NCBI GenBank assembly: GCA_002699025.1
Contig: PABA01000064.1
Location: 1 to 42,097 of the forward strand
Source: Sandaracinus sp.
Lineage (GTDB): Bacteria > Myxococcota_A > Polyangia > Polyangiales > Houyiibacteriaceae
DNA length: 42,097 bases
Direction: 5' to 3'
Shown here: positions 25,553 through 38,367 of the stretch, piece after piece
How positions within the stretch are numbered: the stretch's first letter is position 1
How the letters are laid out: every line of letters begins with the position of its first letter
Made by a program: the position numbers and the translations under genes
The notes under the pieces: model-generated
What the model saw: the letters and a program-made list of their open reading frames with translations, nothing else
Told to the model about the DNA's origin: nothing
The model's database searches: none

Positions 25553-26908
<1,356 letters not shown>

Positions 26909-27158: not shown

Positions 27159-28301
27159 ATGCACGCCCTCGTTCTCAGCCACGCCTCCTGGGGAATCCCC
27201 GACGCCTGCCGACGCGCTCGGCTCGAGCCGGTCTTCGTCGGCGACCCGGCGGAGGCCCGGACCCATCTGGACCACGCGGAGCCGGGGGAGATCGCCTGCG
27301 TCCTCGTGGACGCGAGCGCGCCCGGAGCCCACCGCTTCATGGAGTGGCTCCGGAGCCACCCCCGCCTGCTCTCCCTGCCCACGCTCTTCCTCGTCGAGGA
27401 GGCCACGACGGACGCCTTCGTCGAGGCGCACGCGGCCGGCGCCGACGACGCGGTGGTGCGCACCGACGCGACGATGATCCAGCGCCGCATCGCGTCCCTG
27501 AAGGGCTTCCGCGCGAAGCGCCCGGACGTCACGCAGGGCCGCGCCCTGGTCGCCATCTCGGACTCGCGGGAGCGGCGCCTCCTCGGGCGCTACGTCCGCT
27601 GGGCCGGCTTCGATCCCTGCTTCGCGGAGACCCTCGTGGAGCTCCTGGCCCGCGGCTCGGAGAGGCACTTCGACCTCGTCGTCGCGTCGGCCGACCTCGG
27701 CGACGCGCGCAGCGCCGTGGAGACCCTCCGGAGCGAGCGTCCGGATCTCGCGTTCGTCTGGACCACGCGCGATGAAGACGAGGCCGCGCTCCGCGAGTCC
27801 CTCGCCGGCCTCCCCCGCGTGGCGGTCACCCGTCGCACGGCGCCCATCGACCACCTCCTCTTCCACGTGAACGAGCTCATGGCGGCTTCGGGCACCGACG
27901 GACGCGACTCCCGCCGCCTGCTCGTCGACACCCTCTGCGCGTACCGCCCTTCGGGGATTCGCCCGGCGGCCGTCGGGCTCACCTACAACCTGAGCCGCGG
28001 GGGGCTCTACGTGCGCACCTTGGCGCCGCTCCCCGTGGACGTGGAGGTGTGGCTCGAGCTCCGCCCCGCGCGCGCGCTGCCCTGGACCCACCTCCGAGGC
28101 GTCGTCCGCTGGCGTGCCCTGCCGGGGAGCCGCCGTGGCGCGACGCCGCCCGGGTTCGGCGTCGAGCTCCTCCCCGAGCTCTGTCCCGCCCGGGACCTCG
28201 GCATCTACCGGGACGCCTACGACGCGCGGCTCGCCCGCGAGCGCCGCCTCGATACGCCCGCCTCCTCCCTCCCCACCTCCCAGCCGCGAGACCTCCGATG
28301 A
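27159..28301 (+). CDS. Tandem pseudo-receiver protein with PilZ domain
   Basis: A 380-residue cytoplasmic protein. Residues 1-115 and 127-240 each have the length and pattern of receiver domains but lack the acidic cluster, and the second has ASAD where the phosphorylated Asp would be, so neither should be phosphorylated in the usual way. Residues 250-345 form a PilZ domain with N277-x-S279-x-x-G282 (YNLSRGG); the usual upstream RxxxR is only partly kept, so c-di-GMP binding needs testing. ATG 27159 has AAAGGAG 5 bases upstream. The next gene, a receiver-EAL protein, overlaps by ATGA, joining a c-di-GMP reader and a degrading enzyme in one operon. Confidence 0.82.
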   Translation: MHALVLSHASWGIPDACRRARLEPVFVGDPAEARTHLDHAEPGEIACVLVDASAPGAHRFMEWLRSHPRLLSLPTLFLVEEATTDAFVEAHAAGADDAVVRTDATMIQRRIASLKGFRAKRPDVTQGRALVAISDSRERRLLGRYVRWAGFDPCFAETLVELLARGSERHFDLVVASADLGDARSAVETLRSERPDLAFVWTTRDEDEAALRESLAGLPRVAVTRRTAPIDHLLFHVNELMAASGTDGRDSRRLLVDTLCAYRPSGIRPAAVGLTYNLSRGGLYVRTLAPLPVDVEVWLELRPARALPWTHLRGVVRWRALPGSRRGATPPGFGVELLPELCPARDLGIYRDAYDARLARERRLDTPASSLPTSQPRDLR

Positions 28302-29614
28302 CCCAGACCTACACGCACACGACGCCCACGAGCCCCGCCCACGGAGCGCGCTCGTCCTCCACTCCCTCCACGAACGCCCCCTCCACGAACGCCCCCTCCA
28401 CGAACGCCCCCTCCACGAACGCCCCCTCCACGAACGCCCCCTCCACGAATCCCTCGGCCCGGCCGGCCACGGGGCGGGTCCTCGTCGTCGACGACGACCA
28501 GTGCGCCCGGGCCGCGATGAGCCGCTGCCTGCGGCGCGCCGGGATGGTCGTCTCGGTGGCCGGAGATGGCGACGCCGCCGTCGAGTGGCTCGAGAGCACC
28601 GAGGTGGACGTCATCGTCTCCGACGTCGCCATGCCCAACCTGGACGGGCTCTCGCTCCTGCAGTGGGTGCGCGAGCGCCGGCCGAGCCTCCCGGTGATCC
28701 TCACCACGGGCGAGCCGAGCGTCGGCACGGTGATGGAGGCGATGGAGAAGCGCGCCTTCGCGTTCCTGCCCAAGCCCGTCGCGGCCAACGAGATGCTGCG
28801 GCGCGTCGCCGACGCGCTCTCGGAGCATCGCCGCCTCCAGCGCCAGCGCGAGCTCGAGGAGGCCGCCGCCGCGCAGCGCGAGGCCGAGGCCCGGCGGCAG
28901 GCGCTGGGTCGCCAGTTCGACCGCGCCCTCCAGCGTCTGGTCATCCACTACCAGCCGCTCGTTCGCTGGTCGACGCGCGAGGTCGCGGTCCACGAGGCCC
29001 TCGTGCGCAGCGAGGAGCCGGAGCTCCGCGTCCCCCCGGCGCTCTTCGCGGCGGCCCGCGAGCTCGACCGCGCCCACGATCTCGGCCGGCGCATCCGCGA
29101 GCTGGCCGCGCAGGCCTACGACGACGCCCCCGAGGGCTGGCGGCTCTTCGTGAACCTCGCCGAGGAGGACCTCGAGGACCCGGAGCTCTACGCGCCCGAG
29201 GCGCCCCTCTCGCGCCACGCCTCCCGCGTCGTCCTCGAGATCAGCGAGAGCGCGCGCGTGAGCGAGTGCGTCACCGAGCACCTCGCGAATCTCCGCGCCC
29301 TCGGCTTCCGGGCCGCCGTCGACGACGTGGGGGCGGGCTACGCGGGGTTGAACAGCATCGCGCGCTTCGAGCCGGAGACGATCAAGATCGACATGGAGCT
29401 CGTGCGCGACGTGCACCTCTCGAAGGTGCGCCAGCGGCTCATCCGCTCCCTCGTGGTGCTCGCCGAGGAGATGGGCATCGAGGTCATCGCCGAGGGCATC
29501 GAGTGCCGCGAGGAGCTGGACACGCTCGTCGAGATCGGCTGCGACCTCTTCCAGGGCTACTACTTCGCCAAGCCCTCGCCGACCTTCGTGGAGCCGGCCC
29601 ACCTGACGGACTGA
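28298..29614 (+). CDS. Response regulator with EAL phosphodiesterase domain
   Basis: A 438-residue cytoplasmic protein. A disordered N-terminus contains five perfect TNAPS repeats; a receiver follows (61-175) with D65-D67, phospho-acceptor D109 in IVSDVAMP and K159 in LPKP; a short charged coiled coil (178-205); and an EAL domain (206-430). Catalytic residues are present: E233, N286, E314 in LEISE, D342/D343, K363, E399 and Q419. Active hydrolysis of c-di-GMP under phosphorelay control is likely. It overlaps the PilZ gene by 4 bases and shares its sigma-54 promoter. Confidence 0.92.
   Translation: MTQTYTHTTPTSPAHGARSSSTPSTNAPSTNAPSTNAPSTNAPSTNAPSTNPSARPATGRVLVVDDDQCARAAMSRCLRRAGMVVSVAGDGDAAVEWLESTEVDVIVSDVAMPNLDGLSLLQWVRERRPSLPVILTTGEPSVGTVMEAMEKRAFAFLPKPVAANEMLRRVADALSEHRRLQRQRELEEAAAAQREAEARRQALGRQFDRALQRLVIHYQPLVRWSTREVAVHEALVRSEEPELRVPPALFAAARELDRAHDLGRRIRELAAQAYDDAPEGWRLFVNLAEEDLEDPELYAPEAPLSRHASRVVLEISESARVSECVTEHLANLRALGFRAAVDDVGAGYAGLNSIARFEPETIKIDMELVRDVHLSKVRQRLIRSLVVLAEEMGIEVIAEGIECREELDTLVEIGCDLFQGYYFAKPSPTFVEPAHLTD
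28366..28449 (+). repeat. 15-bp in-frame tandem repeat (TNAPS linker)
   Basis: Five identical copies of CTCCACGAACGCCCC from 28366 to 28440 plus a partial sixth. The unit length is a multiple of three and gives a Thr-Asn-Ala-Pro-Ser linker; identity at the DNA level implies recent expansion. Confidence 0.95.
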
Positions 29615-29797
29615 GGCGAAGCCTCCAGTTTCGTCTACCGAGTCGCTCTACCACAAAGGGGGTACGGCAGGGCCTCCCGAGGCCGTCGCGCACGATGGAG
29701 GCGGCTGCTCGCGGATGCCTCGAATGGGAGGGTCGATCGTCTCACCACCAGATGGGGATGTTGTGGGGATGGGCACCGTTTGCGATCACGAGCACGA

Positions 29798-31642
29798 GTG
29801 CCCAACGATCCCTCCGAGGTCTTCGAGGCCTCCCTCACGGTCGCCTTGACGCTCGATGCGGAGGGTCGGGTCCGGGCCTTCTCGCCCGGGGCACGCGAGC
29901 TCTTCGCCTCGGCGACGGGCCAGCCTCTCGAAGAAGGCGTCCCGCTCGTCGACGCGGTCCTCCCCGCCCTCCGGGAGCAGGTCGCCTCCCGCCTCGAGCG
30001 GGCGCGCTCGGGTGAGCACGTCGCGGGGGTGGTCGAGATCGAGCTCGACGGCGCCCAGCGGGTCCTCCGCTCCATCTACGTGCCCATGCTGGAGGGGGGC
30101 GAGGTTCGCTCCATCCTCCTCACGGTCTTCGACGCCACCACCCAGGTCCTGCGGGACGGGCAACGCCGGCTCTTCGAGGCCGCCATGCAGGAGGTCAGCG
30201 AGGGCATCCTCATCGCCGACGCCCGCCAGCGCGGCTTCCCCACGATCTGGGCCAACCGGGGGTTCACCGAGATCACCGGCTACGAGTGGGAAGACATCAT
30301 GGGGCGCTCCTGCAGCATCCTCCAGGGCCGCGACGTCGACCAACCCGGAGTCCAGCAGCTGACCGGGGCCCTCGCCGCCGGCGAGCCCGTGCGGGCGACC
30401 GTGCGGAACTACCGGAAGGACGGCACGGCCTTCTGGAACGACATCTCCCTCACCCCCCTCTTCCGCCGCGGCGGAGATCGGCCGACGCACTACGTCGGCG
30501 TGCTGCGCGACGTCTCGGCCCAGTACGAGCTCCGCGAGCAGCTCCTCCACGCGAGCCGGCTCGACGCGCTCGGCCAGCTCGCGGGCGGCGTGGTTCACGA
30601 CTTCAACAACCTGCTGACGGCGATGGGCATGGAGCTCCAGATGCTCCACGAGGCCGCCGACCAGCCCGAGCTGGTGCGCGAGAGCGCCGAGGCGCTCGAG
30701 GAGGTCGTCGGGCGCGCCGGCGCGCTGGTCCGCCGCCTGCTCGCCATGTCCAAGCCCACGCAGGTGGAACCCGACGTCCAGGCGGTGGACGCCATCGTCG
30801 AGCGCTCGGCGCGCATGCTCCGCCGGCTCGTGGAGAGCCGGGTCGAGCTGGTCGTGGTGCCGCCCGAGGAGACGCTCTGGGCCTCGGTCGACGCGACCGT
30901 CATCGAGCAGGCGCTGGTGAACTTCGTGGTGAACGCCCGCGACGCCATGCCCAGGGGAGGCACGGTGACGGTCGAGACGCGGGGGGTCCGCGAGGGCGGG
31001 AAGGAGTGGGTGGAGATCCGCGTCCGGGACACCGGCGGCGGGATCCCCGAGGCGGTCTTGCCGCGGGTCTTCGACTCCTTCTTCACCACGAAGGGAAAGA
31101 AGGGCACTGGCCTCGGCCTCGCCACCGTGAAGCGCCTCGTGGAGGCGCTCGACGGCGAGGTGAGCGCGGAGAACGACGCCGTCGGTGCGGTCTTCCGGGT
31201 GCGCCTGCCGCGCCTGCGCTCCAAGCCGGCGGCGAAGCGGAGGCCGACGAGCCACTCGGCGCTCCGGCGACCCCAGACTCTGAAGCTCCTCCTCCTCGAG
31301 GACCAGGACGCGTTGCGGCGCGCGCTCGCGCGGCCCCTCCAGCGCGCCGGCTACGACGTGACCGCGGTGAGCCTGCCGAGCGTGGCTCGGAACGCGATGA
31401 AGAGCCTCGAGCGGGTCGACGTGCTGGTCACGGACATCGTCCTCCCCGGCCAGAGTGGCATCGAGTTCGCTCGCTGGGCGGCTGAGCTGAACCCGGAGCT
31501 CCGCGTGGTCTTCACGACCGGCTACGCCGACATGGACGTGACGGCGAGCGGCCTGCCGCCGGAGCGGTGGCGCCTGCTCACCAAGCCCTTCGACACCCGG
31601 AAGCTCGTGCAGACCATCCAGTCGCTCGTCTACGACGAGTGA
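29798..31642 (+). CDS. LOV/PAS hybrid histidine kinase with C-terminal receiver
   Basis: A 614-residue cytoplasmic protein. A PAS-like domain (about 5-115) is followed by a LOV-type PAS domain (about 125-245) with GRSCSILQG, where C172 matches the flavin-reactive Cys of GxNCRFLQ, and with NYRKDGTAFWN. A histidine kinase follows: phospho-acceptor H267 in VVHDFNNLL, N box NFVVNARDAM, DTGGGIPE and KGTGLGLA; then a receiver (about 500-614) with D546 in LVTDIVLP and a Lys in TKPF. Blue-light sensing is plausible, though the LOV Arg and the late Gln are Ser and Leu. The start is uncertain: GTG 29798 or TTG 29780. No membrane segment. Confidence 0.88.
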   Translation: MPNDPSEVFEASLTVALTLDAEGRVRAFSPGARELFASATGQPLEEGVPLVDAVLPALREQVASRLERARSGEHVAGVVEIELDGAQRVLRSIYVPMLEGGEVRSILLTVFDATTQVLRDGQRRLFEAAMQEVSEGILIADARQRGFPTIWANRGFTEITGYEWEDIMGRSCSILQGRDVDQPGVQQLTGALAAGEPVRATVRNYRKDGTAFWNDISLTPLFRRGGDRPTHYVGVLRDVSAQYELREQLLHASRLDALGQLAGGVVHDFNNLLTAMGMELQMLHEAADQPELVRESAEALEEVVGRAGALVRRLLAMSKPTQVEPDVQAVDAIVERSARMLRRLVESRVELVVVPPEETLWASVDATVIEQALVNFVVNARDAMPRGGTVTVETRGVREGGKEWVEIRVRDTGGGIPEAVLPRVFDSFFTTKGKKGTGLGLATVKRLVEALDGEVSAENDAVGAVFRVRLPRLRSKPAAKRRPTSHSALRRPQTLKLLLLEDQDALRRALARPLQRAGYDVTAVSLPSVARNAMKSLERVDVLVTDIVLPGQSGIEFARWAAELNPELRVVFTTGYADMDVTASGLPPERWRLLTKPFDTRKLVQTIQSLVYDE

Positions 31643-36717: not shown

Positions 36718-38367
36718 TCAGTACGGGTTGTCGCGGTAGTTCGTCGGCGTGACTCCGAACTCCGGATCGCTCATCTCGGAGCCGCTCATCGAGCTCATGG
36801 TCGAGCGCATGGGCGTCCACCGCGGCCGCTCGCGCGGCATGTCGGCGTCGACCTCGAGCGTCTCGCCCGTGACGGTGCGCGTGACCGAGGTCGTCCGGTA
36901 GCCCCGGCGCTCGAAGCGGAAGGTGACCTCGCGACCGGGCTCGGCGGCCTCACCCACCCAGACCACGCTCGCCGGCGTCTCGCCGTAGCTCCGCTCGCCG
37001 ACGAAGACCTCGGCGCCCGGCGGGCTCGAGCGGAGCGTCACCTCGCATCGCGCGAGCGGCGCCTGCTCCATCATCGCCGTCTCGGCGACCTCGGCCTCTT
37101 CCTCCTCCATGGCGGTGGCGCTGGCCTCCTCTTCCTCCATGGCGGTCGGCTCTTCGACCTCGGGCGTCGCCTCCATGGTGGAGGGCTCGGTCTCGTTCGA
37201 CGCCGTCGAGTTCGTCTCCGGGGGCGGCTCACCGCCGCGCCCGAACATGGCCCAGCCGCCGACTCCGAGGAGCGCGATGGCCGCGACGATGAAGATCAGC
37301 TTGCCCTTGCCGCCCTTCTGCTCCTCGACCTCGGGGAGCTCGACCTCGGGCACGGCGCCCACGCCGCTCGCGGGCGTGCCGGTGATCTGGATGCCCCCGC
37401 TCGGCGTCGCGGGCATGTGCCGGACGCCGCTCAGGTCGTACTCGCCGCTGACGCTGATGGACTGGCTCGAGCTCATCGGCGCGCCGAGCAGCCCGCTCGC
37501 CTGCTTCAGGGCGAGGATCACGTCGTTCATCGACGCGAAGCGCAGCTCGTGGTCCTTGTGCAGGCACTTGAGGACGACCTGCTGGACCTCGGGCGGGATG
37601 GGCACGCCATCCTCGCGCTCCATGGGCGGCACGTCCTTCTTGATGTGCGCCATGAGCGTCTGGACCTGCGTGGTCCCCTCGAAGGGAACCTTGCCGGTCA
37701 TCATGTAGTAGAGGATGACGCCGAGGGAGTAGACGTCCGTCCGGCCGTCCACGTCGCCGCCCTGGATCTGCTCCGGCGACATGTACTTGGGGGAGCCCAT
37801 GAACAGACCCTGCTGGGTCAGCTCCTGGTTCTCCTTCACGTTCTTCACGAGGCCGAAGTCGAGGACCTTCACGAAGTCCTCTTCGTCGCCGTGCTTCGTG
37901 ATGAGGACGTTCGCCGGCTTGAGGTCTCGGTGGATGACGCCGAGGCCATGGGCCTCGCGCACCGAGCGCGCGATCTGGATGGCGATGTTGATGGCCCGCA
38001 GGGGGTCCATCGCGCCGCCGGTCTTCAGGAGGGAGGAGAGCGTCCGGCCCTCCACGAACTCCATCACGATGAAGTAGATGTCGTCGCTGGTCTTACCGTA
38101 ATCGAAAACGGTGACCGTGTTCGGGTGCGAGAGCTTCGCAGCCGTCGACGCCTCGAGGAAGAAGCGCGCCTGGAACTCGGGATCCTCTTCGCCCTTGTAG
38201 CGAGGGTCGAGGACCTTCAGCGCGACGACGCGCCCGAGCGGGGCCTGTTGGGCCTTGAAGACCCGACCCATCCCCCCACGCGCGACCAGCTCGAGAATCT
38301 TGAACCGATCGTTGATGACCCTTCCAACGAGAGGGTCTTTTTCTACCTTGGCTGGAGCTTCCGCCAT
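36718..38367 (-). CDS. Membrane Ser/Thr protein kinase with PEGA domain
   Basis: A 549-residue protein. Hanks-type kinase at 20-290: glycine loop ARGGMGRV, K51, H146-R147-D148 with K150, DFG 170-172, and SPE in YMSPEQ. A linker leads to one membrane helix (355-376), then a Glu/Ala/Met-rich segment with a repeated TAMEEEE, then a PEGA domain (440-505, SSPPGAEVFV) and a Met/Ser-rich tail. The kinase faces the cytoplasm and the PEGA domain lies outside. It sits on the opposite strand between the gamma and beta genes; whether it affects the ATP synthase is unknown. Confidence 0.93.
   Translation of the reverse strand: MAEAPAKVEKDPLVGRVINDRFKILELVARGGMGRVFKAQQAPLGRVVALKVLDPRYKGEEDPEFQARFFLEASTAAKLSHPNTVTVFDYGKTSDDIYFIVMEFVEGRTLSSLLKTGGAMDPLRAINIAIQIARSVREAHGLGVIHRDLKPANVLITKHGDEEDFVKVLDFGLVKNVKENQELTQQGLFMGSPKYMSPEQIQGGDVDGRTDVYSLGVILYYMMTGKVPFEGTTQVQTLMAHIKKDVPPMEREDGVPIPPEVQQVVLKCLHKDHELRFASMNDVILALKQASGLLGAPMSSSQSISVSGEYDLSGVRHMPATPSGGIQITGTPASGVGAVPEVELPEVEEQKGGKGKLIFIVAAIALLGVGGWAMFGRGGEPPPETNSTASNETEPSTMEATPEVEEPTAMEEEEASATAMEEEEAEVAETAMMEQAPLARCEVTLRSSPPGAEVFVGERSYGETPASVVWVGEAAEPGREVTFRFERRGYRTTSVTRTVTGETLEVDADMPRERPRWTPMRSTMSSMSGSEMSDPEFGVTPTNYRDNPY

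Follow-up and report, generated by a model that had tools for sequence, protein, structure and literature searches.

The window (the whole stretch of 42,097 nucleotides analysed here) encodes a hybrid histidine kinase that is in itself ordinary but carries an unusual sensor of LOV lineage. Judged by its residues, the LOV domain is an uncommon pocket variant that retains the light-reactive cysteine, Cys172. Light sensing is our best single guess at its function, one that we consider about as probable as not; at the same even level we place the fuller explanation of a flavin-binding LOV-sensor hybrid histidine kinase with an altered pocket, in which Cys172 would form the adduct and light would lower activity. 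The features on which this account draws are listed in Table 1.

Table 1 Features of the LOV-lineage kinase and its upstream neighbours, with positions in the window.
Feature	Position	Strand	Basis or remark
PAS-LOV-HisKA-HATPase-REC hybrid histidine kinase	29798..31642	+	Pfam domains and codon-usage gene call
LOV-lineage PAS domain	30170..30538	+	PDB LOV matches at 5e-28; AF2 model against LOV structures
Ser171-Cys172-Ser173 (canonical Asn-Cys-Arg)	30308..30316	+	Alignment; Asn and first phosphate Arg replaced, adduct Cys retained
Thr189, where the second FMN-phosphate Arg would be (PpSB1-LOV R70)	30362..30364	+	Pocket mapping
Asn204, ring-contacting Asn, conserved	30407..30409	+	Pocket mapping
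Asn214, ring-contacting Asn, conserved	30437..30439	+	Pocket mapping
Leu236, at the active-site Gln position of the last strand	30503..30505	+	Alignment
Linker from DVS (238) to the phospho-acceptor His267	30509..30598	+	7 residues shorter than in YF1/SB2F1, otherwise ungapped
C-terminal receiver domain	31289..31621	+	Pfam Response_reg 504-614 (TTG numbering)
Receiver-EAL protein, candidate output	28298..29614	+	Pfam Response_reg, EAL
Receiver-like/PilZ-like protein, overlapping the receiver-EAL start	27159..28301	+	PilZ 0.0015 and TIGR02266 8.5e-11, both under cut-off
NtrC-type sigma-54 activator with receiver	25553..26908	+	Pfam

Kinase architecture and the LOV lineage of its sensor

The kinase comprises 614 amino acids from a GTG start at 29798, or 620 from a TTG at 29780 with the same end at 31642, and Pfam orders its domains as PAS_4, PAS_9, HisKA, HATPase_c and Response_reg, with histidine kinase, ATPase and receiver in a single chain. 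Asp546, placed by motif, is presumably the phospho-acceptor of the C-terminal receiver. Frame 1 of 30170-30540 translates as ...IMGRSCSILQGRDVDQPGVQQLTGALAAG...NYRKDGTAFWNDISLTPL...HYVGVLRDVS. An earlier sequence-only reading had noted a LOV-like domain in a hybrid histidine kinase, recognising the domain by the motifs GRSCSILQG, NYRKDG and FWN. All three lie in the place and frame that it gave, its numbering of Cys172 as the adduct position is right with the GTG start (codon 30311-30313; the TTG start would give 178), and both the LOV origin and the kinase type are borne out by Pfam, the PDB search, the fold match and the alignment with SB2F1 and YF1.

A phmmer search of all PDB chains with the LOV domain returned 152 sequences at E ≤ 0.001, and the best of the 60 listed are LOV proteins, led by the LOV-diguanylate cyclase 8c05 (4.9e-28), with Pseudomonas short LOVs, MrLOV 9vf7 and YtvA among the other leading matches; the designation of these matches as LOV proteins, and of those of the two paralogues described below, draws partly on general background on the family. 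One match labelled just ‘Sensor protein’, 3ewk, is presumably a flavin PAS domain, not a LOV domain. The NCBIfam model YtvA_fam aligns with residues 125-252 (9.5e-33), under its curated whole-protein cut-off. The domain combines a PAS fold with LOV proteins as nearest sequence relatives, and its resemblance to LOV at the residue level is far beyond chance.

An AF2 model of positions 30131-30679 (mean pLDDT 79.8), obtained with alignment A2 including 10 relatives from viral contigs, scores ~90 by block in the LOV core and is least certain in the Cys-bearing Ealpha stretch (block mean 66). Its best structural match is MrLOVe 9vf7 (Z 19.3, 1.7 Å, 141 residues), YF1 4gcz follows at Z 18.3, and among the 50 structural matches listed the LOV structures range from Z 19.3 to 17.2. 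Since the PAS domains of EAG and hERG channels match nearly as well (Z 17.4-18.2), the fold alone cannot separate LOV from other PAS domains, and it is the sequence that decides. No His suitable as a haem ligand by the FixL rule was seen by eye in the Falpha stretch.

The flavin pocket and its rarity

Alignment with other LOV domains and mapping of the pocket against the residue list given for PpSB1/W619_1-LOV in PMC5314338 together revealed five substitutions (Asn to Ser171, Arg to Ser173, Phe to Ile174, Arg to Thr189 and Gln to Leu236). The adduct Cys is kept at its Ealpha position (C172), as are the ring Asn pair and the Gln four residues after the Cys (N204, N214, Q176), both residues of the LQ motif (Leu, Gln), the last-strand Gly and the hydrophobic residues elsewhere, while the active-site Gln of the last strand and both flavin-phosphate Arg are absent. 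In PpSB1-LOV the phosphate-contacting Arg are R54 and R70 (PMC5314338, PMC13322254), and all LOV proteins are said in PMC4335406 to carry two such conserved residues. The sequence-only reading had picked out the Ser after the Cys and the late Leu, both of which we confirm, and had concluded that the photocycle may be altered. That conclusion is reasonable but understated, as the whole phosphate clamp is gone and not one Arg, and the changes at Ser171, Ile174 and Thr189 had been missed.

Loss of the Gln would by itself be no obstacle to signalling, because Gln-less LOV receptors, natural and engineered, still signal according to PMC9098866. Loss of Arg near the phosphate (R61/R66) sped recovery in PpSB1-LOV, as reported in PMC5314338; since these residues differ from the two Arg missing here, fast recovery of an adduct is suggested by analogy. 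The domain resembles the LOV-deltaQ receptors of PMC9098866, in which the Cys is kept and a hydrophobic residue replaces the active-site Gln, Leu and Ile being the commonest replacements in that set. However, the set was filtered at 8 or more of 9 conserved residues, and the window domain falls outside it with just 6, because the Asn, Arg and Phe around the Cys are changed in addition to the Gln.

The frequency of these losses was surveyed in 189 loci, comprising 155 from Pseudomonadota (a sample centred on a Gammaproteobacterium genome), 19 from other genomes of the window's phylum, presumably Myxococcota, and 15 from viral contigs. The Cys is kept in 151, of which one was dropped for a gap, leaving 150 readable at all positions. 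Among these, the Arg after the Cys is missing from 5, the second Arg from 30, the Asn from 27 and the Gln from 21, but none lacks both phosphate Arg, none lacks the Asn together with the first Arg, none lacks all four, and 148 have at least 7 residues of the nine-residue set of PMC9098866, these being descriptive counts and not a test, as the loci were picked by similarity to queries that were or contained the window domain and include near-duplicates. Among open-licence papers, covered mostly at listing level, we found no report of a LOV domain lacking both phosphate Arg and none of a myxobacterial LOV kinase with this residue combination.

Paralogues, relatives and the course of the clade

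Two full-length paralogues of the same domain order are encoded in the same genome, C117 (53% identity) and C104 (46%). In C117 the Cys motif is SSLAF (Cys to Leu) and Met occupies the Gln position, with the ring Asn pair and the Gln four residues on retained; C104 reads HPALF (Cys to Ala) and has lost both ring Asn and that Gln. In the PDB, both LOV-derived domains still match LOV proteins. The two paralogues are comparable to the Cys-less LOV-like regulators described in PMC4682037, whereas the window copy keeps its Cys; they differ from those regulators in lacking the active-site Gln, which the published Cys-less filter counts as conserved (PMC4682037). Compared with C117, the window copy is identical at 66/123 positions in the LOV domain and 140/226 in the kinase; as the sensor is conserved about as well as the kinase, it does not look abandoned. 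The corresponding values against C104 are 40/122 and 128/225, a comparison which points to drift or a new role for the C104 sensor, while that of the window copy looks maintained.

The three kinases form one clade (support 100/97 in the kinase tree and 98/97 in the LOV+kinase tree). The window copy groups with C104 in the kinase-only tree (99/91) and with C117 in the LOV+kinase tree (88/79), the two Cys-less copies are joined in neither, and C104 sits on a very long branch in the LOV-only tree. Because the two trees disagree on branching order, we say only that the Cys may have been lost twice. With two of the three paralogues Cys-less, the clade may be leaving photochemistry. A more specific scenario, which we regard as unlikely, sees the paralogues as stages in the conversion of a LOV photoreceptor, in which the clamp and Gln would have been lost first and then the Cys twice, leaving the window copy as a surviving adduct-forming, riboflavin-using intermediate. 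A further LOV-like domain of this genome (L003:1501-1845) retains the NYRKDG and Gln positions and carries Pro where the Cys would be (GRTPRLLQG); such Cys-to-Pro domains recur in the Pseudomonadota sample.

No close orthologue of the whole kinase was found in 36 relatives, the best match being 37% identical. At E ≤ 1e-18, matches to the LOV domain occur in 8 of the 182 other genomes searched within the order, and a phylum sample of 376 others contains them in 10, one of which is shared with the order set. A scan of genome contigs recovered mostly kinase relatives, with 12 matches reaching the LOV region and the LOV motif in none of them, and all plasmid matches were below 60% identity. The window domain alone found nothing on viral contigs, while alignment A1 retrieved 15 loci there. 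The closest architectural relatives are LOV-HisKA-HATPase-REC hybrids, found on viral contigs (L102-L111) and several times in the same taxonomic order, which share the domain succession from LOV to receiver and are ~30-43% identical in the LOV domain; NCBIfam NF010076, a model of this type, matches the window kinase below its cut-off. These relatives mostly carry the canonical NCRFLQ and the Gln, both of which the window copy lacks. Canonical LOV kinases occur on L102-L112, IMG/VR contigs with a viral classification (L102-L106 being near-identical), and 9 of the 15 viral-contig loci match the window kinase through the receiver (match end at residue 610 or later). Such loci may stem from host DNA flanking a prophage or be carried by a phage as cargo.

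Predicted output and competing explanations

The order LOV-coiled coil-DHp-CA is shared with the LOV-FixL kinases YF1 and SB2F1 (4gcz, 8a6x; PMC13322254), from which the window kinase differs in its shorter linker, an extra N-terminal PAS domain, the C-terminal receiver and the altered pocket. HMMER aligns it end to end, from LOV to the end of the kinase, with SB2F1 (8a3u/8a6x sequence, E 3.5e-52) and YF1 (2.8e-51), with a single deletion of 7 residues between the LOV DV(S/T) motif and the DHp His. According to PMC6798134, blue light represses YF1 variants of the 7n linker class and activates those of the 7n+1 class. The LOV-to-His length differs here from that of YF1 by one such step, and the heptad register is kept; a light-repressed kinase is therefore predicted, in which light would most likely lower net kinase activity.

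The receiver-EAL gene lies upstream of the kinase in the same direction and ends 183 bp before its start. A scan of 29400-29900 found no promoter and no terminator, a negative that carries little weight in a genome this rich in GC. Alignment of the EAL part with BlrP1, the closest solved relative, and with another EAL phosphodiesterase extends through the catalytic motifs, and the residues taken to be catalytic look intact. We take BlrP1 to be a BLUF blue-light-regulated phosphodiesterase; that it is the closest solved relative is probably coincidence. The N-terminal part of the receiver-EAL protein contains a repeated NAPST motif encoded by a perfect 15-bp tandem repeat (28364-28449, 5.7 copies, 100% matches), in which changes of copy number would stay in frame. 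An ATP synthase gene cluster follows downstream of the kinase; its gamma and beta genes are separated by an opposite-strand gene (36718-38271, -) for a Ser/Thr protein kinase with a PEGA domain. Of the three paralogues, only the window copy has the c-di-GMP neighbourhood, since C117 (L092:7749-11698) is flanked by an aldehyde dehydrogenase, a short-chain dehydrogenase (SDR) and a PhaR-type PHB regulator, and C104 has a sigma-54 activator and a gene for a universal stress protein nearby. Gene adjacency is the basis for the proposal of the sequence-only reading that the kinase may bring light into a c-di-GMP circuit. We keep to that conditional wording because the kinase has a receiver of its own, none of the neighbours examined showed an Hpt, the paralogues have other neighbours and no orthologue was found in which a conserved neighbourhood could be sought. 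Such wiring would not be new, since a chain from LOV kinase to diguanylate cyclase to PilZ protein is described for Erythrobacter in PMC12172448.

Under the preferred explanation, the LOV domain would still bind the flavin ring and blue light would produce a Cys172-C4a adduct, which would probably decay fast. With no Gln, water might relay the protonation of flavin N5, a route put forward for other LOV domains without the Gln, and with both phosphate Arg gone the cofactor might be held less tightly or be riboflavin. From the LOV dimer the signal would reach the DHp helix through a coiled coil that keeps the YF1 register, and phosphate would go to the kinase's own receiver first and, in a possible second step, to the adjacent receiver-EAL protein. 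This explanation is favoured by the dominance of LOV proteins in the PDB search and the fit of the model to LOV structures, by the retention of the Cys, ring Asn pair, Gln four residues on, last-strand Gly and hydrophobic pocket positions, and by the 7-residue linker step, a Gln-to-Leu change compatible with signalling and the Erythrobacter precedent. It is weakened by the joint loss of both phosphate Arg, preceding Asn and Gln (0/150 Cys-bearing LOVs), by the Cys-less state of two of the three paralogues, by the near-equal fold scores of EAG PAS domains and by the lower confidence of the Ealpha block. That searches of this genome found neither a BLUF domain nor a phytochrome PHY domain also counts against it, though there was one short match to the photolyase FAD-binding family FAD_binding_7.

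That the LOV likeness of an ordinary PAS domain arose by chance is very improbable: PAS domains share one fold and the channel domains score as they do, but LOV proteins rank first motif by motif in the sequence search and the canonical motif is present in related LOV kinases from the same order. The other two alternatives accept the LOV ancestry. Flavin reduction elicits a response from LOVs that naturally lack the Cys (PMC4682037), C117 keeps its ring contacts despite Leu for Cys and Met for Gln, and several positions of the window copy are already off-canonical, all of which would suit a flavin-binding redox or light sensor that works without an adduct, its flavin being reduced, by light or chemically, to the neutral semiquinone and Cys172 a leftover. 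We hold this to be possible but doubtful, as the Cys is in the right place, the ring-contacting positions are retained and no sequence feature here reports redox chemistry. It is unlikely that the domain is a former LOV whose flavin binding has been lost and whose present role is that of a PAS module for dimerisation or for a small ligand; N204, N214, Q176 and the packing positions are kept and conservation is near the kinase level, although the phosphate clamp is gone and C104, with its strongly diverged sensor, offers a precedent in the same family.

LOV photochemistry is usually described through a fixed set of pocket residues, and a domain with the Cys but without the Gln, the adjacent Asn and both phosphate Arg provides a test of which residues are needed to hold flavin and to signal. 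The siblings in the same genome have gone further, with the Cys lost and, in part, the pocket largely erased, and form a natural comparison series. Should the kinase act on the neighbouring receiver-EAL protein, c-di-GMP control in the lineage would also gain a branch that light represses.
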